Part shown: positions 1 through 43,165 of the stretch, one piece after another
How the letters are laid out: each line of letters starts with the position of its first letter
How positions within the stretch are numbered: the first letter of the stretch is position 1
Assembly: GCA_949282745.1 (NCBI GenBank)
Contig: CASDQM010000033.1
Location: 1 to 60,825, forward strand
Length of the DNA stretch: 60,825 bases
From: an uncultured Sutterella sp.
Lineage (GTDB): Bacteria > Pseudomonadota > Gammaproteobacteria > Burkholderiales > Burkholderiaceae_F
Direction of reading: 5' to 3'
Notes under the pieces: generated by a model
The model's input: only the letters and a program-made list of their open reading frames with translations
Databases searched by the model: none
What the model was told of the DNA's origin: nothing
Translations under genes and position numbers: made by a program

Positions 1-1202
1 CTCGTGCGCACGCGAACGAGGTGTTTGGCGCGCACCGTGTGGAAGACGAGGAAAGCGATGAGCGCAACGAATCCGATGAGCCAGTCGAGGTGACGCCGGA
101 AAAATCCGAGGAAGGTTTGTTCGTCCAGATACGCGTAGGGCCCGTAATGGAGCGTCTCCATGAGGGAGCGCACGCCGCTCAGGTCCACGCGGATCCCCCA
201 GCGGTAGTTCTGCATCGAAGGCATGCCGAAGAGCACCGCGGCCAAACGCCGCACCGAATCGTCCTGCGCGTGCGACGTGTAGGAAATCGACCAGTCCGGA
301 TAGCGCGCCGTCGTCGAGAGGCAGGCGCCCGGTCGGGCCGGACGCGTGAAGACGGGCAGGAAGGCTTCCGAGTCGATCATCCCCTGGCTTTGCAGCCGCT
401 CGTAAGTGCAGGCCGAGAGAAGCCCCGCGTCGGCGTCGCCCGAGGCGACGGCATTGAGCACTTCGGGTGCGTCGTGCGCGCGCCAGAGAAGCGCGCCGAA
501 AAAGTCTTCCGCTTCGTAGCCCTCTTCGACGAGACGCCCGCCCAACCACTGCCAGGGCCCGAAGGAAACGCTGCTCTCCAGGGCCAGGCGCTTTCCGCGC
601 AGGTCCTCCCAATTCTTGGGGACGGGCTTGTCGGCCGAAACGAGAAGAAGCGCCCCGGCCGATCCCTCGGCGCCCTCGCCGATTCGCTCGCGCGTCGCCA
701 AGGGCACCGCCCCCGTGTCGAGCATGAGGGAGACGGTCGTCCCCGCGGTCGCCACGGCGAAGGGAATGTTTCGCTCGCGCACTTCCTCGACGAAGACGCG
801 CGAAGGAATCCCTTCGACTCCCACGCGTCGGTCGGGGAAGGCGCGCTTTAGGGCGTCGAGCACCGGGAGGACGCTCTGATAGAAGACCGCGGACGACCCG
901 GTGTCTTCGACGGCGATCCAGAAGTCGCCCTCGCCGAGTCCTTCGGGAGGCATCAGTTCGATTTCGGTGAGGTTCTGCCCCCGTCCCTCGGTGAATTCAA
1001 GCGAGCGCAGGGCCGAGAGATCGAAGCTCGCCGACGAGACGGCGTCGGCGGGAGGCGTTTCGGGAGCCGCCGGCAGTTGCGCGGAGAAGACGGCGAGAAG
1101 CGCGCAAAGAGAGACCGCAAGCCCTTTTCGACGCCCCGACGCGGCGCCGTCGGGTTGCGGCGCAGAGCGTTTTCTGAGGAAGGACAAAAGGCGGAGAGGC
1201 AT
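1..1202 (-). CDS. TtrS-like sensor histidine kinase, N-terminal part (cut by window edge)
   Basis: The reverse strand is open from an ATG at 1202 to the left edge, so only the sensor half is seen (about 400 residues). It starts with a basic stretch and a hydrophobic export or anchor segment. A periplasmic PhnD-like ligand-binding domain follows, including the stretch DADAGLLSACTYERL, and then a membrane segment (IGFVALIAFLVFHTV) near the edge. This order matches TtrS-type kinases, which sense electron acceptors in the periplasm; the kinase core would lie outside the window. Two sensor cysteines (SACTYE and PGACLSTT) correspond to two in the kinase at 41216-43165. The gene is divergent from the flavoprotein operon at 1415, so control of that operon is a reasonable inference. 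Confidence 0.8.
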   Translation of the reverse strand, partial: MPLRLLSFLRKRSAPQPDGAASGRRKGLAVSLCALLAVFSAQLPAAPETPPADAVSSASFDLSALRSLEFTEGRGQNLTEIELMPPEGLGEGDFWIAVEDTGSSAVFYQSVLPVLDALKRAFPDRRVGVEGIPSRVFVEEVRERNIPFAVATAGTTVSLMLDTGAVPLATRERIGEGAEGSAGALLLVSADKPVPKNWEDLRGKRLALESSVSFGPWQWLGGRLVEEGYEAEDFFGALLWRAHDAPEVLNAVASGDADAGLLSACTYERLQSQGMIDSEAFLPVFTRPARPGACLSTTARYPDWSISYTSHAQDDSVRRLAAVLFGMPSMQNYRWGIRVDLSGVRSLMETLHYGPYAYLDEQTFLGFFRRHLDWLIGFVALIAFLVFHTVRAKHLVRVRT

Positions 1203-1284
1203 GGGCGGCTTCAACGGGGGAAAGTTTAGGAATCATGACAGGAAACGCCGCGCGACGCAAGGCTTTCACGCGGCGTCCCCGACC

Positions 1285-1323
1285 TATCCCAAGGTATGTA
1301 TGCCAACCCATACCAAGGTATGT
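1285..1323. promoter_or_regulatory. Tandem CCAAGGTATGT direct repeats with a palindrome
   Basis: CCAAGGTATGT occurs at 1289-1299 and again at 1313-1323, 24 bp apart (about two helical turns). The second copy is part of the perfect palindrome CATACC-AA-GGTATG at 1309-1322. The site lies about 90 bp before the flavoprotein start, in the divergent region with the sensor kinase. It is a candidate binding site for that kinase's unseen response regulator. Confidence 0.5.
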
Positions 1324-1414
1324 CGCCGAAAATTCGGTGCGGCGCGAGAATGATCCCAACCGAAAGGTTTCTCTCCTTTTGCACACTCTCAACACATCAC
1401 CGAAGAGGATTCAA

Positions 1415-2971: not shown

Positions 2972-2995
2972 TTCTTAACCGACTCTCTCCTTCGC

Positions 2996-3025
2996 GAGCC
3001 GTCCGGAGACCGCTCCGGGCGGCTC
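2996..3025 (+). promoter_or_regulatory. Intercistronic hairpin between flavoprotein and cytochrome
   Basis: GAGCCGTCCGGAG (2996-3008) pairs with CTCCGGGCGGCTC (3013-3025) around a 4-base loop, with one G-T wobble. It is followed by GTTTGG rather than a clean T-run. It may partly stop transcription or stabilise the upstream message, giving unequal flavoprotein and cytochrome amounts. Confidence 0.55.
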
Positions 3026-3063
3026 GTTTGGTCTCCAACCCCCTGTTCTCCAAGATCCCAGCC

Positions 3064-3405
3064 ATGAAAAAGACCCCGATCCTCGCCGCGCTCGTCGCCG
3101 CTCTCTTTGCGGTTTCGTCGGCCTACGCCGCGGAAAACCTCGCCGACCGTCACGCCAAGCTCGGCTTCAAGTGCGAAACCTGCCACGCCGGTCAGGCCAC
3201 GCCCTCCGAACCCCCGATGGAAGCCTGCACGGGCTGCCATCAGATCGAAGCCCTCGTGGAAAAGACGAAGAACGTCAAGCCCACGAACCCGCACGTTTCG
3301 CCCCACTACGGCAACACGCTCGAATGCGTGAACTGCCACATGATGCACGGCGAAAGCACGAACTTCTGCGACCAGTGCCATCAGTTCAACTTCAAGATGC
3401 CCTGA
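3064..3405 (+). CDS. Small periplasmic tetraheme cytochrome c (module A)
   Basis: This 113-residue protein has a Sec signal peptide (residues 1-22, cleavage likely after AYA). Four CXXCH heme sites follow: CETCH, CTGCH, CVNCH and CDQCH, with extra histidines available as distal ligands. It resembles the small tetraheme domains that feed electrons to flavocytochrome-type fumarate reductases. Here carrier and flavoprotein are separate genes, so the pair probably forms a split flavocytochrome. The start at MKKTP was chosen because the signal peptide begins there. A CcmI-like protein that would help attach hemes is encoded at 58530-59387. Confidence 0.9.
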   Translation: MKKTPILAALVAALFAVSSAYAAENLADRHAKLGFKCETCHAGQATPSEPPMEACTGCHQIEALVEKTKNVKPTNPHVSPHYGNTLECVNCHMMHGESTNFCDQCHQFNFKMP

Positions 3406-3710
3406 TGTATCGCAAGGGATTTCATATTCCGCTCAAACTTGTGTCCCACATTTTGTCCCACAGGAAGACATAAGTTCTCAGGAAACTGAAGCCCTTTCCT
3501 ATCAAACGCATCCCCGTCTTCTCGACGCGCCGCCCGATCCTCTTCCGGACGGTGCGTTGGAAACCGAGACCGCAGACGTCTTCCGAGGCGCCTGCGGTCT
3601 TTTCGTTTGCCGCCCCCGAACACGCAAAAGGCGGCGCCTCCGGGCGCCCTTTGCTCAAGAGCGACCGTTCGGCAACCGCCTTCTCCGTTTCTTCGGACGA
3701 AAGACTCTTC
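3406..3710. other. Gene-free stretch with a direct repeat and two hairpins
   Basis: No convincing gene is seen. TGTCCCACA is directly repeated at 3442-3450 and 3454-3462. A hairpin of AGACCGCAG (3568-3576) with CTGCGGTCT (3593-3601), followed by TTTCG, points like a plus-strand terminator. A second GC-rich hairpin at 3628-3653 could end the minus-strand tautomerase message. Confidence 0.45.
3568..3606 (+). terminator. Probable rho-independent terminator
   Basis: AGACCGCAG and CTGCGGTCT form a 9-bp stem followed by a short T-rich run. It lies 160 bp after the cytochrome gene and may end the module A transcript. Confidence 0.5.
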
Positions 3711-3938: not shown

Positions 3939-4045
3939 GTCATCCTCCTTGATGGACAAAAGGTTTGCTCAGCCTAGGACATTTCGAAGACGCCGTCCAG
4001 TGCGCCGCGCCCGACGATTGAGCCAGCCTTATCCGAACATAGAAA

Positions 4046-4092
4046 AATAATAATGATTCTCTATTGCATCACTGCGCTCAATAGAGTAGTAT
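4046..4092 (+). promoter_or_regulatory. dps promoter with a Fur-like AT-rich site
   Basis: TTGCAT (4064-4069) and TAGTAT (4087-4092) are separated by 17 bp, a good sigma-70 promoter. The AT-rich 19-mer at 4046-4064 partly matches the Fur box and overlaps the -35. ATAG/CTAT elements also occur (4039, 4061, 4081), but their spacing does not fit the OxyR pattern. Confidence 0.5.
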
Positions 4093-4169
4093 TTACCTAA
4101 CGAAACGCACTAAGCGTTTAGAAGAAACTATCAAGTCGGATTGCAAAGGATCCGCAAGGAGTAGACATC

Positions 4170-4619: not shown

Positions 4620-4648
4620 ACCGCTCCCGCTGGTTGGAATAGTGAAAT

Positions 4649-13305: not shown

Positions 13306-13839
13306 TCAGAACCAGGGGCACCAACCGCCGTGACGGCCGCCGTGATGCCAACCGCGGTGATGCGGACGGCCTTCTCCGTAGTACGGGCAGTCGGGGTTCA
13401 TGCCCATGCCGCAGCCGGGACCCCAACCGGGGCCGTAGCCGCCGCGCGGGCCGTAACCCGGACCGTAACCGGGACCGCGGTCGTAACCCGGACCGCGTTC
13501 ATAGCGCGGAGCGCGTTCGCGGATGCCGAAGTTGTCGGACGCGACGATCGAACCGTCTTCAGGGCTCACGAAGACGCGGACCATCGAGCCGTCCTTGGCT
13601 TCCATGCGGACGTCCCAAACGAGTCCGTAGCCGCGCGTGCCGTGCAGCGACGCCGAAAGCGCGCTCGCTTCGGGGAACTTTTCCTGCGCGGCCTTGAGCG
13701 CCGCGGTCATGTCGATCTTGGAGGCGACCTGCGTCGCGGGAGCGGGTGCGCGCGGAGCCGTGCCCGGAGCGGCGTAGGAAAGCGTGGCAAACGCAAGGGC
13801 GGAAGCGGCGAGAGCGGAGAGAATCAACTTTTTCGTCAT
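13306..13839 (-). CDS. Exported PepSY-like protein with Gly/Tyr/Pro-rich and His-rich C-terminus
   Basis: This 177-residue protein has a signal peptide (MTKKLILSALAASALAFA, cut near AYA/AAP). A single PepSY-like domain follows at about 40-105 (ALKAAQEKFPEA, then WDVRMEAKDG and VFVSPEDGSIV). The rest is disordered and rich in GPGY repeats, ending in a His/Trp/Gly segment with two cysteines. PepSY proteins bind partners or metals in the envelope; the exact role here is unknown. Its upstream DNA carries three ACTTAGGG half-sites, suggesting control by a dedicated DNA-binding regulator. Confidence 0.7.
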   Translation of the reverse strand: MTKKLILSALAASALAFATLSYAAPGTAPRAPAPATQVASKIDMTAALKAAQEKFPEASALSASLHGTRGYGLVWDVRMEAKDGSMVRVFVSPEDGSIVASDNFGIRERAPRYERGPGYDRGPGYGPGYGPRGGYGPGWGPGCGMGMNPDCPYYGEGRPHHRGWHHGGRHGGWCPWF

Positions 13840-13912
13840 AACGGGCTCCTTTCCATTTTGGCTGTGTGTGTCGGAGAGGCTTTCCCTCTCCCTGCATCGT
13901 CATTGTCGCACT

Positions 13913-13956
13913 CGAAACTTAGGGAAAGGCTTGCCGAAACTTAGGGTTCCCTAAGT
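13913..13956. promoter_or_regulatory. Tandem CGAAACTTAGGG repeats ending in a palindrome
   Basis: CGAAACTTAGGG occurs at 13913-13924 and 13935-13946, exactly 22 bp apart. The second copy continues into the perfect palindrome ACTTAGGG-TT-CCCTAAGT (13939-13956). Three half-sites on one face of the helix, about 75 bp upstream of the PepSY-like gene, look like an operator for a response regulator or dimeric repressor. Confidence 0.6.
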
Positions 13957-14032
13957 CAGCGTAACAATTTCCTTTGCGGCGGAAACAATCGTCGAAAAAA
14001 TCTCGGCAAAGTATTTTCCCCACAATGAAAAA

Positions 14033-14068
14033 CGGGCGAAAGACCCGCGCAAGCGAATCTTCCGCCCG
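14033..14068 (-). terminator. Terminator of the amidohydrolase gene
   Basis: CGGGCG (14063-14068 complement) pairs with CGCCCG on the minus strand and is followed by TTTTTC. It begins 24 bp past the amidohydrolase stop. Confidence 0.65.
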
Positions 14069-14091
14069 AATGCATTTTCCGGCTCTAGGGC

Positions 14092-15501
14092 TCAGAGCGC
14101 GGGGAGACGTTCGGCTTCGGGACCCGAGTAGTCGACCGTGAGCGTCGCAAAGCCCTCTTTTTCGAGCGCCGCGCGGCCGCGCTCCGTCGTGATGAAGGTG
14201 ACGCCCTTCCCCACGAGCTTTCCGTCCTTCATGACGGTCTTGCCGTCGGCGATCGTTTCGACGGCCTTTTGCCGTTCGAAGTCAAAGACCGTGACGTCGG
14301 CGGCGGCGCCTTCCGAGAGATGGCCGCGGTCGGCAAGGCGCAGGTGACGCGCCGGATTGAGGCTCGTCTTCTGCACGAATTCGGTGAGCGTGAGGGCCCC
14401 GAACTTCACGAGCGAGAGCCCGACCGACAAGAGGACGTTTCGCGGAATGCAGCCGCCGTCCGTGCCGATCGCGTCGACGACGAAGCTTCCGTCCGCGCGC
14501 TTTGCCTGCGCAAGGAGGAAGCGGCTCGTCGCGGGATTCACCGGGAAGCTTCCCGCCGTCGCGGTTTCGGCCTTGAGCCAGAGATCGAGCCCCTCTTCGC
14601 CGCCCACGAGAACCGAGACGCCGTCGCGCTCGACGATCGCCTGCACCTCCCCGTGGCGGAAGGCTTCGATCATCCCAGCCTTGTCGGGCGTGCGCCCGAA
14701 GGTGGCGAGACAGTTGCGCGTGACGTGGTCGATCACGACGCCCTCGGCGTCGCAGGTGAGAATCGTCCCGTTCATGGGGCTCACGTAGGATTCGCACCAG
14801 ATGTTGGGATGGGTCTTGAGGAGTTCGATCGCGTCGGCCGTTTCCTCTTCGACGGCCTTCACGCGGCCGCGGCAATAGGCGTTGATGTGGGCGAGGTGGA
14901 GTTTTTCCGTCCCCGCGGCCTCGATCGTTTCGCGCATGCCGAGAAGGTTCGAGCCCGCCGTCGTGCTCCCCGCGTGCCAGGCGACGTAGGCGTCGCGTTC
15001 GTTTGCGACGCGGATGAGTTCGCTGCTCGTCTCCAGGGGAAGCGGCCAGTGGCCCCCCATGATCTTGACGCCCACCGCGCCCGCCGCGAGCGCCTCTTCA
15101 ACGAAGACGCCGAGTTCGTCGCGCGTAGGCTTGTCGGTCCCGAAGCGAGCCTTCGGGTCGAACCCTTCGAGCACCGCCGCGTGAATGCCGCAACCCGTTT
15201 CGGGCGCGTAGTGAAGAACGTCCGTGAGCGGACCCGCCATGTCAAGACAGGTCGTCACGCCCGAGAGCGCCGCCATGCGCATGCCGTAGGGCGAGCCGAA
15301 AACGCTTCCGAGGTGCAGGTGCGAGTCGACGAGCCCAGGGCACACCACGAGGCCCGTGCAGTCGACTTCGTCGGCCGCGTGGCCCGCGTAGTTCGGGGTC
15401 ACCGCCGCGATCCGTCCGTTTTCGATCACCACGTCCGCGACGCCGTCGAGACCGTTTTTCGGGTCGACGACCCGGCCGCCGCGCAAAATGCGATCCGCCA
15501 T
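14092..15501 (-). CDS. Amidohydrolase / dihydroorotase-like metal-dependent hydrolase
   Basis: This 469-residue protein belongs to the amidohydrolase superfamily. Metal-binding features are the HLH at 61-63 (GLVDSHLHLG), a likely carboxylated lysine K146 (GAVGVKIMGGHW), further histidines in AWHAGSTT and LHLAHINAY, and an aspartate in DAIGTDGGC. The C-terminal strands (DVTVFDFERQ, VMKDGKLVGKG) are the usual second small beta domain. Relatives include hydantoinases, N-acyl-D-amino acid deacylases and adenine deaminase-like enzymes; the substrate cannot be assigned. The ATG at 15501 has AAGGAG upstream. It is monocistronic. Confidence 0.85.
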   Translation of the reverse strand: MADRILRGGRVVDPKNGLDGVADVVIENGRIAAVTPNYAGHAADEVDCTGLVVCPGLVDSHLHLGSVFGSPYGMRMAALSGVTTCLDMAGPLTDVLHYAPETGCGIHAAVLEGFDPKARFGTDKPTRDELGVFVEEALAAGAVGVKIMGGHWPLPLETSSELIRVANERDAYVAWHAGSTTAGSNLLGMRETIEAAGTEKLHLAHINAYCRGRVKAVEEETADAIELLKTHPNIWCESYVSPMNGTILTCDAEGVVIDHVTRNCLATFGRTPDKAGMIEAFRHGEVQAIVERDGVSVLVGGEEGLDLWLKAETATAGSFPVNPATSRFLLAQAKRADGSFVVDAIGTDGGCIPRNVLLSVGLSLVKFGALTLTEFVQKTSLNPARHLRLADRGHLSEGAAADVTVFDFERQKAVETIADGKTVMKDGKLVGKGVTFITTERGRAALEKEGFATLTVDYSGPEAERLPAL

Positions 15502-15603
15502 GTTGGAACTCCTTTTTCTGAGATGTCTTTCGGTTGTCCGAAGCCTTCGCCCCGGACCGGTCGCCATAAGTATTCCACGAAAATTTCCGAACCGAAAGAC
15601 GGA

Positions 15604-19278: not shown

Positions 19279-21414
19279 ATGCGATTTCGCACGCTCCTCG
19301 CCGCCTCGTTTCTGGCGGTGAGTCTCGTTCCGCTCGCGGCCTTCACCGTCCTGCAGTGGCGCGAAACGCAAAGCGAAATTTCGCGCTCCGACGAAATGCA
19401 GGCGCGCTGGGCGCACCGCGCCGCGCTCGAAGCCCAGACGGCGCTTGACGACGCCAAGCGCTTCGTGTTGCTCGCGGCCGAAATGGGGGCGGTCGCCATG
19501 GACGGCGAAACGACCGCCCGCACCTCGCGCACGCTGCAGCTCTCGCTCGAACAGATCGCCTCGACCTACGGTCTCTTTGAAAACCTCCACATCGACGACG
19601 CCCGCTCCAGAAGCCTGCTCTTCGTTCCGAAGGCGAGCGAACGCGGCTCGAACCTCAACGTCGACCATTCCAAGCGCTGGCACAGCCGCGCGGCCCGCGC
19701 CCGTGCGGGCGAAGTCCTCGTTTCCGACGTTTTTCAAGCCGAAGGCGCCCTCAACCGCCCGATCATCAATCTCGCCACGCCCATCCGCAACGCCCGCGAC
19801 GAAACGGTCGGCGTCGCCGCGGCCGCCCTGTCGCTTGACGCGGTGGGACGGGCCGTCGAACGAAAACTCCCCGAAGGCGCCTATCGTCTGCGCATTTTCG
19901 ACCGTGCGGGCCGCTCGCTCTATCCCGACGCGCTTTCGCCCGTCTCCGAAGAATGGAGCCGGATTCTCGCGGAAAGCGACGCCGCGGACGGCGCCCTTCG
20001 CAAAATCGAAGGCGAAGAAGGACGCGGCTACATCGTGCAGAGCCGCACCGCGGACGGCTGGCACATCCTTCTTCTTCGCGACGGCGCGGACCGAACGCAC
20101 CTTGCGACCCGAACCCTGCAGCAGGCGGCGGCCGCCCTCTTTCTTCTCATTGCGCTCACCCTTGCGACCGTGTGGCTCGTCTCGGGCACGCTCGCGCGCG
20201 GCGTGACCAAGCTCATCCGCCACATTGAGAGCGGACGCACCGAACCCGCTCCCGAAGACCGCGTGAGCGTTCCCGAAGAGTTCCGACTCGTGCAGCACCG
20301 CTGGGGACGGGTTCTCCGGGGTCTGCGGGAAAAGCGCAGGGAACTCGAAACTCTCAACAGCGAACTCGAAAGCGAAGTGCAGCGCCGCACCGAAGCCTTC
20401 CGCTCGCAGCATGCGACGCTTTCGGCCCTCTTTCGCGACATGCGCGAAGGCGTGCTTCTCTTTCGCGAGGACGGGACGCTTCTTCTCGCCAATCCGGAAG
20501 CGGAGCGTCTGCTTCCCGGTCCCGAAGCCACCCGCGCGGAGCGATTCGAATCGGTGCTGCGCCGCGTGATGCCCGAGGCGCCGGACGCCAAGCCCGAACT
20601 CGCCTGGACCGAAAACGGCCGCTCGCTCGAAGCCAAGGCCTTCCCGATCGAAGGGGCGCCGGGCGAGCCCGCCCGCGGCGTGCTCCTTCGCGACCGAACG
20701 GAAGCCGCTCAGGCCGAAGCCCTCAAGGAAAGCCTTCTGAGCGTCGTCGCGCACGAACTCAAAACGCCCGTGCAGGCGATTCGTCTGCAAACCGAAAGCC
20801 TTCTCGCCGACGACGGCGCCTGGTCGCCCGACTTCCGCGGGGAGCTTCTCACGAACCTCGACGAAGCGGCTCGGCACCTGCAGTCCCTCATCAACGACTG
20901 GCTCGACGTCGCGAGAATCGACGGCGGGCTCTTTCGCATCGAAAAGCGCGTGCTCTCGCTCTCGAGCGTCCTCAGAAAGGCGGCGCGCCTGGCGAAGTCC
21001 CGGTACGACTTCACCCTTCGCACCGAAGTCGACGAAGACGCCGCCTGTCTTCCCGGCGACCCGGAGCGCCTCGTACAGCTTTTCAGCAATCTCTTTACGA
21101 ATTCCGCCCGGTACGCTCGTCCCGACGCGGCGCCCGAGATTCTCGTGCGCGCCGCGCGGGTGGACGACGAAGTGCACATCCACGTCCTCGACAACGGCGT
21201 GGGCATCCGTCCGGAAGACCGCGAACGCATCTTCGACCGCTTCTATCAGGTGGAGCGCGGCAACCGTCGCCGCTCGGGCGGCACGGGGCTCGGCCTCGTC
21301 ATCTGCCGCGCCGTTTGTGAGGCGCACGGCGGCTCCATCACCGCACTCGGCCGGGACGACGAACCCGGCGCCGACATTTTCGTGCGGCTTCCCCTTTTCA
21401 CCGACGAGTCCTGA
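19279..21414 (+). CDS. Membrane sensor histidine kinase (module B)
   Basis: This 711-residue kinase has a first membrane helix (about 5-25), a periplasmic Cache-like sensing region to about 285 and a second helix (FLLIALTLATVWLVSG). A linker with coiled coil and a PAS-like segment (about 370-470) leads to the HisKA domain with phospho-acceptor His492 (VVAHELKTP). The HATPase_c domain has DNGVGIRPEDRE and GGTGLGLVI. The response regulator gene follows 3 bp later. Together they probably control the flavoprotein and cytochrome genes downstream. The ligand is unknown. Confidence 0.9.
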   Translation: MRFRTLLAASFLAVSLVPLAAFTVLQWRETQSEISRSDEMQARWAHRAALEAQTALDDAKRFVLLAAEMGAVAMDGETTARTSRTLQLSLEQIASTYGLFENLHIDDARSRSLLFVPKASERGSNLNVDHSKRWHSRAARARAGEVLVSDVFQAEGALNRPIINLATPIRNARDETVGVAAAALSLDAVGRAVERKLPEGAYRLRIFDRAGRSLYPDALSPVSEEWSRILAESDAADGALRKIEGEEGRGYIVQSRTADGWHILLLRDGADRTHLATRTLQQAAAALFLLIALTLATVWLVSGTLARGVTKLIRHIESGRTEPAPEDRVSVPEEFRLVQHRWGRVLRGLREKRRELETLNSELESEVQRRTEAFRSQHATLSALFRDMREGVLLFREDGTLLLANPEAERLLPGPEATRAERFESVLRRVMPEAPDAKPELAWTENGRSLEAKAFPIEGAPGEPARGVLLRDRTEAAQAEALKESLLSVVAHELKTPVQAIRLQTESLLADDGAWSPDFRGELLTNLDEAARHLQSLINDWLDVARIDGGLFRIEKRVLSLSSVLRKAARLAKSRYDFTLRTEVDEDAACLPGDPERLVQLFSNLFTNSARYARPDAAPEILVRAARVDDEVHIHVLDNGVGIRPEDRERIFDRFYQVERGNRRRSGGTGLGLVICRAVCEAHGGSITALGRDDEPGADIFVRLPLFTDES

Positions 21415-21417
21415 ATC

Positions 21418-22128
21418 ATGTTCCGCGAACGCCCCCTCATCCTCATCGCCGACGACGAAAGCAAGATCCGCCGCGTCGTCGCCGCCAATCTCGAGCGAAG
21501 CGGCTTTGACGTCTGCTCTGCCGACGACGGCCGTCGTGCGCTCGAAATCTTCGATCACGCGGATCCGAAGCCCGACCTGCTCGTCCTCGACGTGATGATG
21601 CCCGAAAAGGACGGCTTCGAAGTCCTCGAGGCCGTGCGGAAGGTAAGCGGCGTGCCGGTCATTCTCCTCACCGCCAAGGGCGAGGTCGTCGACAAGATGC
21701 GCGGCTTCTCGCTCGGCGCCGACGACTATCTCACGAAGCCCTTTTCGCTCGAGGAACTGCAGGCCCGGATTCTTGCGGTGCTGCGCCGCACCGCGGGACG
21801 CAGGGACGTCGAATCCGTGCGGCTCATGAACGGCCCGCTCGTCATGGAGCCCGCCAAGAGAATCTGCCGCTTCGGCGACGAGGACGTGAAGCTCACCGAC
21901 ACCGAGTACCGTCTCCTGCAGCGTCTCATGGAAAAGCCCGGACACCTCCGCACGCACGAGGAACTTCTTCGCGCCGTCTGGGGACCCGAAGCGCTCGACG
22001 ACCTGCCGCTTTTGCGCGTGACCCTCACGCGCATCCGCAAGAAACTGCAGGCGGCCGGCGCCGTCGGCCCCGTCATCGCGAGCTATTCGGGCGTGGGATA
22101 CCTGCTCGACGATTACAGCGACCTCTGA
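21418..22128 (+). CDS. OmpR-family response regulator (module B)
   Basis: This 236-residue protein has a receiver domain with the acidic pair DD (12-13), phospho-accepting Asp58 (LLVLDVMMPEKDG), a Thr in LLTAKG and a Lys in YLTKPF. A winged-helix Trans_reg_C domain follows at about 135-235 (DTEYRLLQRLMEKPG; LRVTLTRIRKKLQ; SYSGVGYLL). It is translated right after the kinase. An 11-bp-period direct repeat just beyond its stop codon (22132-22153) has the form of an OmpR-type binding site for the reductase operon. Confidence 0.93.
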   Translation: MFRERPLILIADDESKIRRVVAANLERSGFDVCSADDGRRALEIFDHADPKPDLLVLDVMMPEKDGFEVLEAVRKVSGVPVILLTAKGEVVDKMRGFSLGADDYLTKPFSLEELQARILAVLRRTAGRRDVESVRLMNGPLVMEPAKRICRFGDEDVKLTDTEYRLLQRLMEKPGHLRTHEELLRAVWGPEALDDLPLLRVTLTRIRKKLQAAGAVGPVIASYSGVGYLLDDYSDL

Positions 22129-22251: not shown

Positions 22252-23751
22252 ATGACGACCTCCCGACGCCGCTTCCTCGCGGCCGCGGCCGCGCTTCCCG
22301 CCGCGCCTTCCATTCTCGCCCGCACCGCGGCGACCGACTGGGACGAAACCTTTGACGTCGTGGTCGTGGGTTCCGGCGTTGCCGGCACCGTTGCGGCCAT
22401 CGCCGCCGCCGAAAAGGGCGCCAAGGTGCTCATGATCGAAAAGCTCAACCGCACGGGCGGCACCTCGCGCTTTTCGGGCCTCAACTTCGCCTGCGTGGGC
22501 TCGCCCGAGCAGAAAAAGCGCGGCGTCAAGGACAGCCCCGAAGCGCTCGCGCGCGACATGTTCCGCGTCTCGGGCGGCGTGGGCAACTATGAGCTCGCCC
22601 TCGTCATGGCGAAGAACACCGCCCGCGTCGAAAAGTTTTTCACCGACCGCGGCGTCCGTTGGGACGGTCGTCTTCTGAAGCTCGGCGGCCACAGCGCCGA
22701 ACGCTGCCTCATCCCCGAAGGGGACGGCGCGGGTCTTCTCGCCGCCCTCACGAAGTACATGGCCGGTCTCAAGAACCTCACGGTTCGCACTTCCTGCAAG
22801 GCCGACGAAGTGCTCTTCGACAAGGACCGCGCCGCGGGCCTTCTCGTTCGCGAAAACTACGCCTTCAGCGAAGATCCCCGCGACGATGAAACGAACCGCA
22901 CGGGCACGCCCCGCCGCATCCGCGCGCTTCGCGCCGTCATTTTCGCGACGGGCGGCTATGCCCGCGACCGCGCCTTCCGCGCCGTGGAAGTGCCCTTCCT
23001 CGACGGCGTCTCCACGACGACGAGCCCGGGCGCGACGGCGGGCGCCCTGAAGACGCTCGTGCGCGCCGGCGCCCGTGCCATGCACCTCTCGCTCTATCGC
23101 TTTGCCTATCCCCTGCCGACCGAAGACATGGTCTGGGGCGTGCTCATTGATCCGGCCACGGGTACGCGCTTCATGAGCGAAGGGGCGAGCCGCAACGAAC
23201 TCGCCGTCGGCACGCTGCAGCGCCGCCTCACGAACGGCGACAAGAAGCCCTTCATGATCTACGACGAAAAGGCGCTCGGCAAGTTCCACAACCTCAACCG
23301 CGTCGGTCGCTCCCTGAACGGTCTCAACGGTCTCGACGGCACGATGTTCCGCTTCGACACGATCGAAGCGCTCGCCGCGCACTACGGTGCCGATGCGGCC
23401 GCCGTCAAGAAGACGCTCGAAACCTACAACCGCGACATCGCCGCGGGCCGCGACGAAGCCTTCGGCAAGCCGCTCGAGCGCACCGAACGCAAGGTCGAAC
23501 CGATCGACATGAAGGGCCCCTTCTATGGCATCGTCATCAGTCCGCGCCTCAACTACACCCCGGGCGGCATCCGCACGAACGAAAAGGCGCAGGCGCTCGA
23601 CTGGAACGGCAATCCCATCCCGGGTCTCTACGTGGCGGGCGAAGCCGCGGGCGGTCTGCACGGACAGGAACGCATGACGGCCTGCTCCATGCCCGATTGC
23701 TCGGTCTTCGGTCTCATCGCCGGGGAAAACGCCGCCGCCGAACATGCCTGA
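22252..23751 (+). CDS. Tat-exported FAD reductase, fumarate reductase flavoprotein family (module B)
   Basis: This 499-residue protein has a twin-arginine signal SRRRFLAAAAAL (residues 4-15). The FAD-binding GSGVAG is at 40-45, with an FAD-contact region EKLNRTGGTSRFSG just after. The C-terminal GLYVAGEAAGGLHGQ closes the FAD domain. It is related to the module A flavoprotein but clearly divergent, implying a different substrate. AAGGAGACAAAAG precedes the ATG. The tetraheme cytochrome gene starts 28 bp after its stop, and the kinase/regulator pair lies upstream. Confidence 0.9.
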   Translation: MTTSRRRFLAAAAALPAAPSILARTAATDWDETFDVVVVGSGVAGTVAAIAAAEKGAKVLMIEKLNRTGGTSRFSGLNFACVGSPEQKKRGVKDSPEALARDMFRVSGGVGNYELALVMAKNTARVEKFFTDRGVRWDGRLLKLGGHSAERCLIPEGDGAGLLAALTKYMAGLKNLTVRTSCKADEVLFDKDRAAGLLVRENYAFSEDPRDDETNRTGTPRRIRALRAVIFATGGYARDRAFRAVEVPFLDGVSTTTSPGATAGALKTLVRAGARAMHLSLYRFAYPLPTEDMVWGVLIDPATGTRFMSEGASRNELAVGTLQRRLTNGDKKPFMIYDEKALGKFHNLNRVGRSLNGLNGLDGTMFRFDTIEALAAHYGADAAAVKKTLETYNRDIAAGRDEAFGKPLERTERKVEPIDMKGPFYGIVISPRLNYTPGGIRTNEKAQALDWNGNPIPGLYVAGEAAGGLHGQERMTACSMPDCSVFGLIAGENAAAEHA

Positions 23752-23779: not shown

Positions 23780-24169
23780 ATGCGTACGCTCATTTGCACC
23801 GCGCTTCTCGCGCTCGCCTTCGGCTCCGCGCAAGCCGCCGACCAGATGTCCAAGCACGCCGAACGGGGCGTGGCCTGCACCACCTGCCACAAGGGGGACT
23901 TCAAGGCGCCTTCGATCGACGTCTGCACGGGCTGCCACAGCCGCGACGCCCTCGCGAAAGCCACCGAATCGATGAATTTTGAAGCGGTTCTCAAGAACCC
24001 GAAGACGGGTAAGGAGACGCGCCACACCGCGCTCATCAACGTTCACGACAGCTATCACTTCGGCCGCACGGAAAACTGCTTTGACTGCCACCGCGAGCAC
24101 AAGCCGTCGACCAACCAGTGCGCCACCTGCCACGACATCGAAGCGTGGAAGATGCCGACTCCCAAGTGA
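23780..24169 (+). CDS. Small periplasmic tetraheme cytochrome c (module B)
   Basis: This 129-residue protein has a Sec signal (MRTLICTALLALAFGSAQAA). Four heme sites follow: CTTCH, CTGCH, CFDCH and CATCH. It is longer than the module A cytochrome because of an insertion between the second and third hemes. It should pass electrons from a quinol dehydrogenase to the flavoprotein encoded immediately upstream. The start was set at the signal peptide; a longer frame overlapping the flavoprotein has no support. Confidence 0.9.
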   Translation: MRTLICTALLALAFGSAQAADQMSKHAERGVACTTCHKGDFKAPSIDVCTGCHSRDALAKATESMNFEAVLKNPKTGKETRHTALINVHDSYHFGRTENCFDCHREHKPSTNQCATCHDIEAWKMPTPK

Positions 24170-35347: not shown

Positions 35348-35755
35348 TCATTTCTCGGGCGTGTTCTGTTGGCGGATGTATTCCTTGATCTTCGCCAACG
35401 GAGCTCTCCCGCAACTGGCGGCGAAGTAAGACGGCGACCATAGTTGTCCCTTGTAGTACGCCTTCTCCAGTTCGGGGAATCGCTTTCTGAGCATTCGACT
35501 CGTCACGCCCTTGAGGCTGTTCACGAGCGACGAGACCGCAACCTTCGGCGGATAGCTCACCAAAAGGTGAACGTGATCCTTTTCTCCGTCCAATTCCCGC
35601 AGTTCGGCGCCGAAGTCCCGGCAAACCTTTCCCGCCACCTCTCGCATCGCATCCAGGTGCTGCGCCGTGAAGACGGATTTTCGGTATTTTGTCACGAAGA
35701 CCAAATGCACATTAATTTCGAATACGCAGTGTCTTCCAGTTCGAATGCTTTCCAT
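35348..35755 (-). CDS. tnpA: IS200-type Y1 transposase TnpA
   Basis: This 135-residue protein is a full-length Y1 HUH transposase. The metal site is H61-x-H63 (DHVHLLVSYPP), and the nucleophile is Y126 in IKEYIRQQ. It cuts and joins single-stranded ends of the element without target duplication. The gene is divergent from tnpB, with only 32 bp between the start codons. Confidence 0.93.
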   Translation of the reverse strand: MESIRTGRHCVFEINVHLVFVTKYRKSVFTAQHLDAMREVAGKVCRDFGAELRELDGEKDHVHLLVSYPPKVAVSSLVNSLKGVTSRMLRKRFPELEKAYYKGQLWSPSYFAASCGRAPLAKIKEYIRQQNTPEK

Positions 35756-35775
35756 AATTTCATAAGACCAAGTGC

Positions 35776-36110
35776 TATAATGTTCCTATGATCCTACGAA
35801 AAGCCTATCAATTCAAGCTCAGGCCCGACGGGGCCGCCCGCCGCAAACTCTCCCAGTTCTGCGGCTGTGCGCGTTTCGTCTACAACAAGGCTCTGGCTTG
35901 GAACCGTGATCAGCGCTCGTCGGATCCGAACTTCAAGATCTCGTATGCGAAGCTATGCGAACAGCTTCCGGAATGGAAAACCGCAGAGGAAACGAAGTGG
36001 CTCGCAGAGTGCGACAGTCAGGTTTTGCAACAGAGTCTCAAGGATCTGATGCGTGCCTTCACGAACTTCTTCGAAGGACTCACTGATTTTCCGAAGTTTC
36101 ACAAGAAGTT
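35776..36110 (+). promoter_or_regulatory. tnpB promoter region: TATAAT directly before the start codon
   Basis: TATAAT at 35776-35781 lies six bases before the tnpB ATG at 35788, so the message would be nearly leaderless. No ribosome site is visible. The rest of the span is tnpB coding DNA; the signal itself is 35776-35781. Confidence 0.4.
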
Positions 36111-37083
36111 TCGCAACGAAGATTCCATCCGCTATCCGCAACGCTTCAAAATCGACGAAGCCCGCCGACAGATCTTTCTCCCGTGCATCGGTTGGGTGAA
36201 GTACCGCCGCAGCCGCTTCATCGAAGGAAAGCCCAAGAACGTCAACGTCAGCCGCAAGGCGGACGGCTGGTATGTTTCCGTCCAGACGGAGCAGGAAGTA
36301 CCCGAACCGGTTCACCCGAAGGCGGGCGACGAGGCCGGCATCGACATGGGCGTCGTGCGTCTCTACACCTGCTCGGACGGCACGTTCGAACAGGGAGCCC
36401 GTTGTCTGCGGGACAAGTTGGAGAAGCTGGCCAAGCAGCAGCGGCGACTCAAGCGGATGGTCAAGTTTTCCAAAAATTGGATCAAGCAGCAGCAACGCAT
36501 TGCCCGTCTCCACAAAACCGTGGCCGATAGTCGTCGTGATCTGCTTCGGAAAGCCGCGAACAGGCTCTGCCAAAACCACGCCGTGCTCTTTCGCGAGGAT
36601 CTGAAGATCAAGAACATGACGGCATCGGCCAAGGGTACGGTGGAAGAACCGGGTAAGAACGTGAAGCAGAAGAGCGGCCTCAACCGGTCGATTTTGGATC
36701 AGGGCTGGGGGATGTTCTTTTCCCTCCTGAACGTCAAGATGACGGAACTCGGCGGGCTGGTATTTGCGGTACCTCCGCAGAACACCAGTCGGACGTGTCC
36801 CGTCTGCGGGTGCGTATCGAAGGAGAACCGCAGGACGCAGGCGAAGTTCCGATGCACGTCCTGTGGGTACGAGGGCAATGCCGACGCCATTGCTGCGATC
36901 AACATTCTCGGGCGCGGGCAGCGCCTCAGAGCCTGTGGGGAGCTCGTTCCGGTGAACGCAGCTCAAGTGAGTCGACCTTCTCGCAAGAGAAGCGTCGTCC
37001 AGCAGCAGGAACCCGTCGAAGTGACCGTTGACGGCCCCGCCGTCAACGGCTCAGTAGGGAATCACCGTCCTTCAGGGCGGTGA
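35788..37083 (+). CDS. tnpB: RNA-guided nuclease TnpB of the IS605 element
   Basis: This 431-residue protein has a complete RuvC active site: D186 (GIDMGV), E270 (LFREDL) and D366 (GNADAIAA). A zinc ribbon holds C337, C340, C356 and C359 (TCPVCG, CTSCG). TnpB proteins are omega-RNA-guided DNA nucleases that cut target DNA next to a TAM and help the element persist. The last 50 codons overlap the element's right end, from which the guide RNA would be made; a strong hairpin there (37025-37049) is a likely omega-RNA scaffold. Confidence 0.93.
   Translation: MILRKAYQFKLRPDGAARRKLSQFCGCARFVYNKALAWNRDQRSSDPNFKISYAKLCEQLPEWKTAEETKWLAECDSQVLQQSLKDLMRAFTNFFEGLTDFPKFHKKFRNEDSIRYPQRFKIDEARRQIFLPCIGWVKYRRSRFIEGKPKNVNVSRKADGWYVSVQTEQEVPEPVHPKAGDEAGIDMGVVRLYTCSDGTFEQGARCLRDKLEKLAKQQRRLKRMVKFSKNWIKQQQRIARLHKTVADSRRDLLRKAANRLCQNHAVLFREDLKIKNMTASAKGTVEEPGKNVKQKSGLNRSILDQGWGMFFSLLNVKMTELGGLVFAVPPQNTSRTCPVCGCVSKENRRTQAKFRCTSCGYEGNADAIAAINILGRGQRLRACGELVPVNAAQVSRPSRKRSVVQQQEPVEVTVDGPAVNGSVGNHRPSGR
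37025..37082 (+). ncRNA. Candidate omega-RNA 3' scaffold at the element's right end
   Basis: CCGTTGACGGC (37025-37035) and GCCGTCAACGG (37039-37049) make a perfect 11-bp hairpin. The right-end hairpin at 37063-37082 follows. Both lie at the tnpB 3' end, where omega-RNAs of this family are encoded. The guide would be the host DNA from 37093 onward. The exact 5' limit is unknown. Confidence 0.5.
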
Positions 37084-39004: not shown

Positions 39005-40539
39005 GTCGTGAGACCCATGATCGATTCGGCCGCGGCGTGCCCGAAAACGAATGCGTCGGTGAGACCGCAGCCGCCGAGTTGGTTTTCGCCGTGAAGTCCC
39101 CCGGTCGCCTCCCCGGCCGCCCAGAGTCCGGGAATCACCTGTCCGTTTCGGTCGAGCGCATGCCCGACCGCGTCGACCGCAATTCCGCCCGACGTGGCGT
39201 GCACCGTCATGGCGGCGGGCGCGAGCCAGAAGGGCGGCTTCGCGATCGGACGCACGCTTTCGAGCTTCTTGCCGAATTCGTCGCGTCCCGCCCGGATGCC
39301 TTCGGCGTAACGCAGGAGCGTTTCCCGCAGCACCTTCGGCGAAAAGCCTACCTGCCGAGCTAGTCCCTCGATCGAATCGTCCGTCCACGCGTCGCCCGTC
39401 TCGACGGCGAGCACCGCCTCGCGCTGAATGAGGCGGTTGTAGCTGCGAAAGCCCTCGTCGTCGACGAGTACGTAGGCGACGCCGCCGGGCAGCGAAAGCA
39501 CCTTGTCGCGAAGCGTGTCGCGGCGTCCGTCCTCGGCCGCGAAGCGCCGGCCCTCGCCGTCGAGCAGAATGAAGCGCTTCACGTCGTTGTGAAAGCGAAC
39601 GCGACGCGTCCCGCCCACGGGACAGCCCGGCTGACACTGAACGATGTGCATGTCGACGAGCTTCGCCCCCGCCTTCTCGGCGGCGAGAATCATCTCGCCC
39701 GTGGCCGCGGGAACGTTGTCGTGTGTAAGTCCTTTGTACTGCGGTGCGTAGCGAGCGATCATCCCGGGGTTCGCGGAAAAGCCGCCCGAAGCCACGACGA
39801 CGCCGAGCCGCCCCGTAAAGCGCGCGGTCGTCCCGTCGGGAAGTTCGGCCGTGACGCCCGTGATCCGGGGAACGCCCTGCGTCGTCATGCTCGACTCCAG
39901 CGCGAACGCCCGCGTGTTCGTGAGAATTCGAACGCCGAGTTGCCCCGCCCGGGCGCCGAGCTGCCGGACGTAGCCTTCGCCGTTTGGCATGACGGGCTTG
40001 TAGTTGCGGGGAAAGAGCGAACCGGAAATTTCGAAGACGTCGCGCGAAAAGGCGACGCCGAGACTCTCGAGCCAGCGCATCACGGGACGCGCCTCCACTG
40101 CCATTCTCATCAAACGCCCCGTATCGGCCGAAGGCCCGGCGTTTGCGAGAAGCAGTCCGTAGAAATTCTCCACGCTGTCGCGAATCCCGAGCGGCGCCTG
40201 CCGCTCCGGATCGACCGCGGCGTAGTAGCCGCTCGCGATCAGAGTGTTGCCGCCCACGGCCGCGGTTTTCTCGAGCACGATGACGCTCGCCCCCAACTCC
40301 GCCGCACGTGCGGCCGCGGCCAGGCCCGCACCGCCTCCGCCCACGACGATGATGTCGGCTTCCCTTTCGGACGGAAGGTTGAGCGCGGGGCGGCTTTCGT
40401 CAAAAAGCGACTCCTCTCCCGCGGCGACTTCCGGACGCCGTTCTTCCTCACGCCGGCCGCACCCACCGGTCAGCGCGACCGAGGCGAGCGCCAACGCTTT
40501 GCAAAACGCTCTGCGCGTGAATCGGACGTTTTCCCGCAT
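38989..40539 (-). CDS. Tat-exported FAD protein, possible lipoprotein (module C)
   Basis: This 516-residue FAD_binding_2 protein begins with a twin-arginine signal ([21 protein letters not shown]). Cys27 could be lipidated, although the lipobox is not ideal (L at -4). The FAD motif GGGGAG is near residue 69, [10 protein letters not shown] follows, and [14 protein letters not shown] ends the FAD domain. It is related to the other flavoproteins here but clearly distinct. Its ATG overlaps the regulator stop by one base and follows GGAGGAG, so it is translated with the two-component genes. A separate gap leads to the FMN/FAD gene. Confidence 0.87.
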
Positions 40540-41219
40540 CACGTCTCCTCCGGCGGCAAAAGCCTTGTTTCGACGGCCGACTCGGTCTCCTCCTGCGCGT
40601 TCGGATCCAGGGTGATTTCCGCCACCTCGAAGAGACGTCGGATCTCCACGGCCGAATGGACGTCGAGCTTGGCGTAGATGTTCGAGCGGTGAAGCTTCAC
40701 GCCCTGCTCGGAAATGCCGAGGCTCTGCGCGATCGCCTTGTTCGCGGCCCCTGTCGTCGACTCGACCGCGACGATGCGTTCTCTCGGCGTGAGCGAAGCA
40801 ATCCGTGCGCGGGCCGCGTCGCGCAGCCGCCGCTTTTCCCTGGCATCACGGTTCCATTCGAAGAGTCGTCGACAGGCGTCGGCGAGTTTTTCGGCCGTGA
40901 CGGGCTTCGTGAGGAAGTCGGCCGCGCCCTGCTTGACGGCTTGAATCGCCATCTGCACGTCGCCGTGTCCGGAGAGAAATACGACGGGCTGATCGAACCC
41001 GGCCGCCTTCATGCGCGTCTGGCATTCGAGCCCCGACATGCCGCCCATGCGGATGTCCATCACGACGCAGCCCGGCACGGACGGGTCGTCCTTTTCGAGA
41101 AAGTCCTCCGCGCTTTCATAGCCCACGGCGGAAAGCCCCGACATCTGCAGGGCGAAGAGAAGGCCGTTTCGAAGCGAAGCGTCGTCATCCACGAGTCGTA
41201 CGAGCGGTTGAGCGGTCAT
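40539..41219 (-). CDS. FixJ/TtrR-type response regulator (module C)
   Basis: This 226-residue protein has a receiver domain with DDD at 11-13, Asp55 (VVMDIRMGG) and Lys in FLTKPV. A LuxR/GerE helix-turn-helix follows at about 140-205 (SLTPRERIVAVES; NKAIAQSLGISEQGVKLHRSNIYAKL). This is the FixJ-type subfamily used by TtrR and similar respiratory regulators. Its start overlaps the kinase stop by four bases and its stop overlaps the Tat flavoprotein start. It probably activates the reductase genes when the acceptor is present. Confidence 0.92.
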   Translation of the reverse strand: MTAQPLVRLVDDDASLRNGLLFALQMSGLSAVGYESAEDFLEKDDPSVPGCVVMDIRMGGMSGLECQTRMKAAGFDQPVVFLSGHGDVQMAIQAVKQGAADFLTKPVTAEKLADACRRLFEWNRDAREKRRLRDAARARIASLTPRERIVAVESTTGAANKAIAQSLGISEQGVKLHRSNIYAKLDVHSAVEIRRLFEVAEITLDPNAQEETESAVETRLLPPEET

Positions 41220-43165
41220 GATTTCGAAGTCGATTCAGTAGGTTGATGAGTGGCGGTTTCGTTGTCCCGGGGAGCATTCCCGTCCGCGGGAAGCCGCAGG
41301 AGCGCACAAAGACCGTTCGAAGGCGGATCGCGTCTTTGGAAAAGAAGACTTCCTCCGTGGGCCTCGGCGATGCGCCGCACGATGAAAAGTCCGAGGCCGA
41401 GCCCCTCCTTTTTGCCGCTTCGTACCGGCTCGGAGAGCCTCGCAAAGACTTCGTCGGCAATCGGACCGGCCGCCGCCCCCTCGTCCTCCACGGTGAGAAC
41501 GACGAAGGACGGAGACGATTTCGTTGTTTCTTGCCGGGAATCCCCCGCATCCGCCGACGGCTCTGCGCTGTGGGACAGACTGGCGCCGATGACGATGCGG
41601 CGTTCCCCCGCCGGACGGTCGGTCATGGCCGCCGCAGCGTTTCGAAGAAGGTTGACGAGGGCGAGCTCGAGTTCCAGCGGCTCCCCTCGAACGGCAAGAC
41701 CTTCGGGAACGCGGAGATCCACGGTCGTGCCTACGGACGCCGAGCCGTGTTCGAAAAGCGTTTTGGCCCTCTCAACCAAACGCGCGACGTCGATTCGTTC
41801 GTGCTTGCGCCCGCCCGACTTGGCGTAGCTACGCACGCGCTCGACGATGTCGGAGACGCGCTGCGCTTCGCCTGCGAGCGTCTCCGCCGCATCGGCGATG
41901 CGGCGCTCCGTTTCCGCGTCGGGCGACGTCAGAACGCGCTTTGCCGCCAATCGAATCCCGCCCGCATAGGCGACGACGGCGGCAAGCGGTTGGCGCACTT
42001 CGTGGGCGAACATGCTCGAGAGTCCCGAGACGACGCTCGAGCGTTCGAGTTGCGCCAGATGGTCCTGTGCTTCGCGCGCCGCCTTGGCCGCGCGGTCTTT
42101 TTCCTCCACGGCCGCCCTCAGCGCCCTCGTTCGCTTTTCGACGAGGCGGTTTGCAAGGAAGGAGTGAAGCGCGAGGAGCGCGAGCGCCGCAAAGACCGCG
42201 ATGATGCCGTTGCGGTAGCGCGACCAGAAAACCCGGAAGGTGGGTTCCTCCGGCTCCCGATAGGGACCGATCCCAAGAAGTTTGTAGATGTCCGCCGCCT
42301 TGGAAAAATCACTTGCGATGCGCCAGCGCTCGCCCATTCCGAAGAGAGGCGCGCTCATGACGGTGACGGAGAGGGAGCTCGCAAGCTCCGCATCCGTCCC
42401 GGCGGGCACGGCAAGCACGATGTCGGGGAAAAGGTCGGCCGAGCGTCGGCAGGGAAAGCCGTCAAGAGGCTGTTCGTTCAAAACCGTGAGTTCATGTTCG
42501 CGCACGACGTCCGCGTCGATGAGCGACTCGAGGCGACAGGCGGGCACGACCGCGACGTCGGCCGCGGCCTGCTGAACGAGCAGAATCGGATCGGGCGGCG
42601 AGTACCCCGTGAAGCGCACCTTCGCATCCCAGCCTTCCTTCAGAACGCCGTTGTTTTTGAGAAGTCCCTGAAAAAGAAGCCAGGTCGAAAAACTCCCTTT
42701 GTCTTCCGCGGCGATGCGTTCGCCCGGGACGTCGGCAAGCGTTCGGATGTGACTTCCGCGACGCACGATCACGGCGAAGCTTGCCGCCTGAGAGGGATCC
42801 CGCACATAGGGAGCCGCGCGGGCGGCGATCTGCATGGCCCCGGCCTCGAGCTGCAGGACGCCGAACAAAGCGCTGTCCGCGAAGAACGCGTCGATCTTGC
42901 GGTTTCGGACGGCCTCCGTCAATTCGTCTGCGGAATAAAAGGACGTCTGAAAGCGGGTTCCGGGATGCGAACTGCGCAACAGCCGCATGGTGGGCGCAAA
43001 GGATTCGATCAGAAAGTCGGGCCCGAGGTTCTTCTGAAGGCCGATCCGCACGACGGACGGCATGGCGTTCGCAAGGCGCACGGACCCGTCCGCCGCGAAA
43101 ACCGGTTCCGCTGAGGCGAAAGATACGACAAGGAAGGAAAGAAGAAGCCCGAGACGAATCGACAT
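41216..43165 (-). CDS. TtrS-like sensor histidine kinase (module C)
   Basis: This 649-residue kinase has a signal peptide (MSIRLGLLLSFLVVSFASA). A PhnD-like periplasmic binding domain follows (about 30-300), then one membrane helix (about 320-338), a coiled-coil linker, a HisKA-like segment with His388 (MFAHEVRQPLAA) and a HATPase_c domain (VNLLRNAAAA; GLGLGLFIVRR). Two sensor cysteines (VVPACRLES, DGFPCRRS) match the pair in the kinase at 1-1202. Such sensors detect terminal electron acceptors. An ATG three codons upstream (43174) is also possible. Confidence 0.9.
   Translation of the reverse strand: MSIRLGLLLSFLVVSFASAEPVFAADGSVRLANAMPSVVRIGLQKNLGPDFLIESFAPTMRLLRSSHPGTRFQTSFYSADELTEAVRNRKIDAFFADSALFGVLQLEAGAMQIAARAAPYVRDPSQAASFAVIVRRGSHIRTLADVPGERIAAEDKGSFSTWLLFQGLLKNNGVLKEGWDAKVRFTGYSPPDPILLVQQAAADVAVVPACRLESLIDADVVREHELTVLNEQPLDGFPCRRSADLFPDIVLAVPAGTDAELASSLSVTVMSAPLFGMGERWRIASDFSKAADIYKLLGIGPYREPEEPTFRVFWSRYRNGIIAVFAALALLALHSFLANRLVEKRTRALRAAVEEKDRAAKAAREAQDHLAQLERSSVVSGLSSMFAHEVRQPLAAVVAYAGGIRLAAKRVLTSPDAETERRIADAAETLAGEAQRVSDIVERVRSYAKSGGRKHERIDVARLVERAKTLFEHGSASVGTTVDLRVPEGLAVRGEPLELELALVNLLRNAAAAMTDRPAGERRIVIGASLSHSAEPSADAGDSRQETTKSSPSFVVLTVEDEGAAAGPIADEVFARLSEPVRSGKKEGLGLGLFIVRRIAEAHGGSLLFQRRDPPSNGLCALLRLPADGNAPRDNETATHQPTESTSKS

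Follow-up and report, generated by a model that had tools for sequence, protein, structure and literature searches.

TtrS-like sensor kinases paired with divergent flavoproteins of the fumarate-reductase superfamily in an uncultured Sutterella and its relatives

Does a bacterium that carries many flavin reductases encode a separate sensor beside each of them? The question is raised by a 60,825-nucleotide stretch of DNA from an uncultured Sutterella sp. (the window: contig CASDQM010000033.1 of assembly GCA_949282745.1, positions 1 to 60,825, forward strand), in which an earlier note, made from the sequence alone, had seen three modules (A, B and C), each with a sensor next to one or two flavoproteins. 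Domain and gene evidence confirms that all three exist close to where they had been placed, the kinase of A being cut by the contig end. The bacterium is a probable gut dweller, judging from its Sutterella-type assignment, and Little et al. (2024) are said to have described large flavin reductase arsenals in gut bacteria, Sutterella included. The system is real and larger than the earlier note saw: sensors resembling TtrS stand beside flavoproteins in this genome and in others, and the pairing is inherited across species. Its function and substrates we infer. We consider it probable that the modules encode substrate-inducible periplasmic reductases of anaerobic respiration, A and C under the control of TtrS-like sensors and B under that of a dCache-type sensor with an OmpR-type regulator.

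How common is the arrangement in the bacterium's own genome (G000, 2.5 Mb)? In what follows, other genomes also carry the prefix G, contigs the prefix C (the window is C33) and fetched loci the prefix L. Pfam-type matches in G000 number 79 for FAD_binding_2 (many being pieces of one protein), 35 for HATPase_c, 33 for Response_reg, 20 for Phosphonate-bd and 14 for Cytochrom_c3_2. Adjacency was scored in the window plus 52 stretches, together 731,705 bases, with genes called by a codon-usage script and the domains of relatives assigned by profiles built from G000 proteins. We tabulated 58 flavoproteins of the fumarate-reductase superfamily (>360 amino acids) and 16 whole TtrS-like sensor kinases. 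The 58 remained from 70 FAD_binding_2 genes after removal of nine pieces shorter than 360 amino acids and of three genes (C4:90452, C37:2038 and C50:15613) judged to lie outside this kind of reductase; five weaker matches, in no called gene or beyond the stretches, were excluded, and a strong fragment pair on C5 and C15 was entered once, via its main piece.

A flavoprotein gene directly adjoins the kinase/regulator pair at 12 of the 16 whole TtrS-like kinases, whereas among the other kinases of the fetched stretches, 13 in number, only that of module B has such a neighbour. Thus, the adjacency, which is seen directly, exceeds chance. The 13 do not count a 111-amino acid remnant on C44 beside a flavoprotein, nor two non-kinase HATPase_c proteins (GyrB by Pfam, an HtpG-like protein by eye), and two HATPase_c matches on C47 lie beyond the stretches. 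Several further loci bear on the count: the kinase on C18 faces a flavoprotein with an internal stop codon; the sensor C29:1732 faces one that reads as two frames here and as a single frame in G009; the C52 sensor lies at a contig edge, and L070, its 88% relative in G009, comes with a flavoprotein; and flavoproteins stand alongside the partial sensors C33:3 and C46. Counted from the side of the 58 flavoproteins, a TtrS-like kinase or remnant lies at most two genes away from 18, a LysR-type gene (by a profile made from six proteins recognised by eye) adjoins six, another kinase accompanies one (module B), and a cytochrome gene neighbours 16. The sensor-linked reductase array covers about a third of the flavoproteins.

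How far does the array reach beyond this genome? The per-genome counts given here are lower bounds, from the best 46 flavoprotein candidates and the best 32 sensor candidates at most per genome. The 12 genomes of the genus, G000 included, each hold at least 6–18 sensors and at least 26–47 flavoprotein matches. Among 13 other genomes, ten have at least 1–3 flavoprotein matches, G029 at least 11, G015 at least 18 and G012 at least 43. Sensor-rich genomes beyond the genus are G012 (at least 11), G016 (at least 24) and G023 (at least 23); the remaining 26 genomes searched for sensors yielded one in three cases and none in 23 among the best 32 candidates at most. The best three candidates were also scored for each of 369 genomes drawn from across the class, and at least two genomes besides our own gave a match at E 1e-75. 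The layout claimed for the window recurs in these relatives: in seven other genomes, a flavoprotein lies within 700 bases of the pair (measured between profile-aligned spans) at 61 of 74 sensors, and a regulator stands beside 71. The 74 sensors come from loci around 72 of the 103 counted matches in the seven genomes, among the matches listed. The only sensor from outside the family, in G038, has no flavoprotein within 700 bases.

Is the pairing inherited? We identified reciprocal-best sensors between genomes by their periplasmic domains and checked whether the neighbouring reductases were reciprocal best as well, omitting G000–G009 pairs. At a sensor identity of 45% or more, the reductases agree in 23 of 28 pairs, against a mean of 1.4 and a maximum of 5 with shuffled partners. 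Agreement is 8 of 16 at 40–45% (shuffled mean 0.8) and 11 of 30 at 35–40% (shuffled mean 1.4). Two high-identity misses in an earlier pairing test involve module A, whose sensor had been paired with the flavoprotein in the window; its nearer partner in G009 and G007 is a relative of the flavoprotein on C46. From the reciprocal-best pairs at 45% identity and above, we conclude that the sensor–reductase pairing is inherited across species.

Are the four flavoproteins of the window, one each in A and B and two in C (C1 and C2), copies of a single enzyme? The earlier note had called them too divergent for simple duplicates, and our tree bears this out: a single clade for the four is rejected (p-AU 2.5e-62), their active-site residues all differ, and by both measures they do not form one substrate class. 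In the tree (53 rows; of the 58 flavoproteins, seven that were fragmentary or highly divergent were omitted), the flavoproteins of A and B share a nine-member clade, C1 falls in a 12-member clade in which nine members have TtrS-like neighbours, and C2 sits on a long isolated branch whose placement is unsure. The three modules were described as independent; A and B are not fully so, since their flavoproteins share that clade. With 17 of 51 rows labelled, a TtrS-like neighbourhood changes eight times over the tree; shuffled labels give 14.5 changes, and none of 500 shuffles came as low, so that the neighbourhood is clustered but repeatedly changed.

The active sites were compared using the residue roles given for fumarate and urocanate reductases in PMC7921117. 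Equivalents of Fcc3 R401/H503/R544 read R/H/R in 21 of the 58 flavoproteins; in the window they are R/H/R in module A (with Leu at 364), R/N/R in B, R/H/Q in C1 and L/Q/S in C2, which therefore lacks the whole set. None of the four window flavoproteins has the complete Fcc3-type fumarate reductase set (H364, E377, R380, R401, H503, R544) or the complete UrdA set (Tyr373, R411, H520, R560), of which C2 has the Tyr and lacks the other three. Elsewhere in G000, C5:2076 and C53:175 match the fumarate reductase residues, and C7:3629 and C4:78289 have the UrdA residues and cluster with UrdA. Because R/H/R is kept, the module A reductase fits a carboxylate acceptor, neither fumarate nor urocanate. 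Each window reductase likely reduces a different organic acceptor. The flavoproteins of module B and C2 might instead be dehydrogenases or other flavoenzymes of the superfamily, with chemistry unlike that of fumarate reductase: in B the H503 position is occupied by Asn, and C2, on its isolated branch, lacks all three catalytic residues and scores below the flavocytochrome c cut-off (225.3 vs 285.45). We find this doubtful, since the partner cytochrome of B and the FMN_bind domain of C2 fit electron delivery to an exported reductase, and in rows this divergent the sites are not securely aligned.

What might the sensors perceive, if not the acceptors of their neighbours? TtrS is the top-scoring family for the sensors of module C, the module A fragment and C36:22206, and none passes the cut-off of 750 for NCBIfam TtrS NF040750 (159.2, 68.5 and 168.8 bits, respectively); sensors from other lineages also fall under it (L135, 274; L080, 359). 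The kinase half resembles FixL, and the recognition helices of 13 regulators of G000 differ from one another by eye. Within G000 the periplasmic domains are on average only 27% identical, and still C213, E216 and C242 are invariant in 91 of 91 aligned sensors and present in all of L135, L136, L139, L140 and L141, five sensors that belong to other genera and classes. Such constancy is what one would expect if the sensors read a shared signal, either periplasmic redox state through the invariant cysteines or a general sulfur oxyanion, and co-induced the reductases irrespective of their substrates; TtrS itself senses tetrathionate and ThsS thiosulfate, according to PMC5408782. However, the relatives keep these residues beside genes other than flavoproteins, namely an iron-sulfur protein gene (L135), an NrfD gene (L136), c-type cytochromes (L139 and L141) or neither (L140), which makes them a family trait, and the cysteine pair may be a structural disulfide. 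The remainder of the sensor domain diverges yet stays tied to particular reductases, and we judge a shared signal unlikely. As a mark of flavoprotein-linked sensors the cysteine pair was rejected, being present in sensors from other lineages.

How would a sensor that responds to its neighbour's substrate work? From what is known of these protein families, an organic acceptor would enter the periplasm and bind the sensor domain, which is TtrS/PhnD-like in modules A and C and dCache-like in module B; the kinase would then phosphorylate the adjoining regulator, this would activate the promoter of the adjoining flavoprotein, and the exported FAD protein would reduce the acceptor. Electrons would pass from the quinol pool through a single NapC/NrfH-type cytochrome to the tetraheme cytochromes (A and B) or to the FMN domain of C2. 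NapC/NrfH-type proteins and ApbE are each matched once in the genome, and FMN_bind 12 times. Because the first of these has a single match, many reductases may share one quinol-linked entry, by analogy with the Shewanella systems in PMC8238504; a further NapC/NrfH copy could be missing, since the assembly is 92.5% complete. More tentatively, and as a possibility short of an even chance, a sensor family known from sulfur-oxyanion respiration may have expanded in Sutterella and in three related genomes, to at least 6–24 copies, and been retargeted to organic acceptors. Sensor domain and reductase would then form an inherited specificity unit around a more exchangeable kinase–regulator core (one case, module C), and each sensor would report the substrate of the orphan reductase next to it.

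Several observations weigh against substrate-responsive pairing. In G000, 33 of the 58 flavoproteins have neither a kinase within two genes nor an adjoining LysR gene (C2, whose kinase is three genes away, is among them, as are some at contig ends). Module C, like module A by synteny, has two flavoproteins for one sensor; the earlier formula of one sensor per reductase is therefore not supported in that strict form. TtrS-like kinases on C3 and C23 lack an adjoining flavoprotein, as do 13 of the 74 sensors in other genomes within 700 bases, six of these having one farther off. Past the regulator of a module B-type sensor, L147 shows no flavoprotein in the roughly 660 bases available, and the active sites of the module B flavoprotein and C2 deviate from characterised chemistry. 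Between genomes, agreement falls to 19 of 46 pairs where the sensors are 35–45% identical and to none of 11 below 35% (shuffled mean 0.3). Within genomes, sensor and reductase distances are uncorrelated in G000 (r 0.04) and in G002, G007, G009 and G016 (−0.20 to 0.13); r reaches 0.37 in G012 (40 of 1,000 shuffles as high) and 0.52 in G023 (0 of 1,000). Mantel tests within genomes, comparing kinases with regulators and regulators with reductases, were likewise mostly not significant.

Could some pairs, then, be neighbours through history only, the sensors hitchhiking with mobile or amplified reductase loci while controlling other targets? The mostly absent within-genome correlation would suit such a history, as would the flavoproteins that flank some sensors on both sides and the transposase gene beside module C. 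Yet the genes of module C overlap, the pairing is retained between species at 45% sensor identity and above, and nearly every sensor in the other genomes has its regulator alongside (71 of 74), and we regard hitchhiking as highly unlikely. For control by the reductase's own substrate, the mostly uncorrelated within-genome distances leave two explanations, past re-pairing or a signal lost or saturated at about 30% identity.

Have comparable systems been described? Among the papers listed, literature searches found no description of sensor–reductase pairing in Sutterella, or of this sensor family joined to flavin reductases at such scale. The closest parallel is Eggerthella lenta, one strain of which has 83 transmembrane LuxR regulators, some near flavin-dependent enzymes, and in which DadR, CadR and HcdR provide three cases of a neighbouring enzyme induced by its own substrate (PMC9734109). 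Shared with it are the many paralogous regulators, some near flavin enzymes; there, however, they are one-component LuxR proteins of an actinobacterium, mostly with 10–12 transmembrane segments, and the three enzymes tested were catechol dehydroxylases, which are molybdenum enzymes, whereas here a histidine kinase and response regulator accompany flavoproteins. A survey of TtrS-like proteins lists 154 non-redundant kinases, 131 with a regulator, and 13 and 18 that lie near thiosulfate or tetrathionate genes (PMC5408782). By the same source, TtrSR-ttrBCA and ThsSR resemble our modules in placing a PhnD-like kinase and a regulator (FixJ-like in ThsSR) beside a reductase, with the same domain order; they differ in that their targets are tetrathionate and thiosulfate reductases, while ours are flavoproteins and our sensors score far under the TtrS cut-off. 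With Shewanella Fcc3 and UrdA (PMC7921117), the window flavoproteins share the FAD_binding_2 fold and electron input by heme or FMN, and module A keeps R401/H503/R544; by contrast, none of them has H364 with E377 and R380 or the full UrdA set, and in A and B the cytochrome is a separate gene.

Many members of the reductase superfamily have no known substrate, according to PMC8238504, and the conserved sensor pairing could help reveal what each reductase uses. Should every sensor prove to respond to its neighbour's acceptor, clones combining sensor, regulator and promoter could be tested with molecules from diet and host, and substrates could then be found without purification of every enzyme. 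The array could also supply metabolite biosensors, and it is an example of a two-component family that multiplied while remaining paired with its target enzymes.

Module C lies on the minus strand. The TtrS-like sensor kinase (41216-43174, minus strand; 652 amino acids) has Phosphonate-bd, HisKA and HATPase_c domains and carries C213, E216 and C242; its HisKA score (25.5 bits) is just below the 26.9 cut-off, and the TtrS-like domain order and an adjoining regulator are present. That FixJ/TtrR-like response regulator (40539-41219, minus strand; PF00072 and PF00196) reaches 172.8 of 255 for FixJ and 125.5 of 290 for TtrR in NCBIfam. C1 (38989-40539, minus strand; 516 amino acids from the ATG, or from a GTG start at 40542) has a Tat-type signal, and C2 (37089-38885, minus strand; 598 amino acids) combines FMN_bind and FAD_binding_2; both score under the TIGR01813 cut-off of 285.45 (280.8 and 225.3). 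Kinase and regulator overlap by ATGA and regulator and C1 by GTGATG, and the overlap of these first three genes suggests a single transcript. All four genes of the module recur together in G009, at 84% identity for the sensor, 86% for the regulator, 91% for C1 and 98% for C2, and in G002 (64, 63, 71 and 89%, in the same order), C2 being the most conserved gene; in G012 (L084), a 56% relative of C2 comes after a module C-type pair. Against its G009 orthologue (L075:3989-6037), the sensor is 94–100% identical over residues 51–400 and about 62–74% in the kinase half. This suggests a mosaic sensor, its kinase core either replaced or fast-evolving. An AlphaFold model of the sensor domain from a three-sequence alignment was discarded (mean pLDDT 33.4).

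Next to module C, an IS200/IS605-type pair (35348-37083; a TnpB-like OrfB by Pfam and a small gene by eye) ends six bases from the stop codon of C2. On the other side lies an esterase gene (43378-44418; Abhydrolase_3, with a signal-like N terminus by eye), divergent from the sensor gene; it is kept in G009 (91%), was not found beside module C in G002 and was dropped as a part of the module.

Module A opens the window with the N-terminal 400 amino acids of its sensor (3-1202, minus strand), comprising a signal region, a Phosphonate-bd (TtrS/PhnD-like) periplasmic domain (PF12974, E 1.2e-20) and a membrane segment; the contig end interrupts the gene, and its kinase half and regulator lie outside the window. 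On the plus strand follow the flavoprotein (1415-2971; 518 amino acids, Tat-type signal, FAD_binding_2, TIGR01813 421.6 bits against 285.45) and a tetraheme cytochrome c (3064-3405; 113 amino acids, PF14537, four CXXCH). Between sensor and flavoprotein, a candidate operator noted by eye (1285-1325, without assigned strand) holds two copies of CCAAGGTATGT and a GGTATG...CATACC inverted repeat, nearly unchanged in G009; upstream of modules generally, candidate inverted repeats were found in 6 of 12 regions and differ between modules. At the G009 locus L078, the module A sensor, a regulator and a second flavoprotein occupy one flank, and the flavoprotein and cytochrome seen in module A the other. 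C46 starts within a kinase 95.9% identical to that of G009 and continues with a regulator (99.5%) and a flavoprotein (93.0%); by synteny, the kinase half, regulator and second flavoprotein of module A are thus probably on C46, and the module probably has one sensor with two flavoproteins. The C33 and C46 sensor pieces overlap by 97 residues with several positions differing, so the halves may represent strain variants and not a single gene.

Module B lies wholly on the plus strand. Its sensor histidine kinase (19279-21414; 711 amino acids) falls outside the TtrS-like group, having a dCache-like periplasmic domain (dCache_1 27.4 bits, under the 45-bit cut-off). It is followed by an OmpR-type response regulator (21418-22128; PF00072 and PF00486), a flavoprotein (22252-23751; 499 amino acids, FAD_binding_2, Tat-type signal, TIGR01813 286.4 bits against 285.45) and a tetraheme cytochrome c (23780-24169; PF14537, four CXXCH). 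The sensor has an 88% orthologue in G009 and relatives in 5 of the 11 other genus genomes; beyond the sensor comes a regulator in all five and then a related flavoprotein (53–99%) in four.

Elsewhere in G000, the TtrS-like kinase and regulator at C3:3-3271 adjoin an M20 peptidase gene that runs off the contig end, and around the relative in G009 (L077) the 4 kb fetched on each side contain no flavoprotein. TtrS-like kinases at C23:18385-23512 and C35:1-5458 lie near seven-heme proteins that are Cytochrome_C7/MtrC-like, C35 also having a flavoprotein. At C48:12493-16608 (L045), a transposase-like pair (13733-15603, by eye) sits between the FMN_bind and FAD halves of a flavoprotein, apparently interrupting it.

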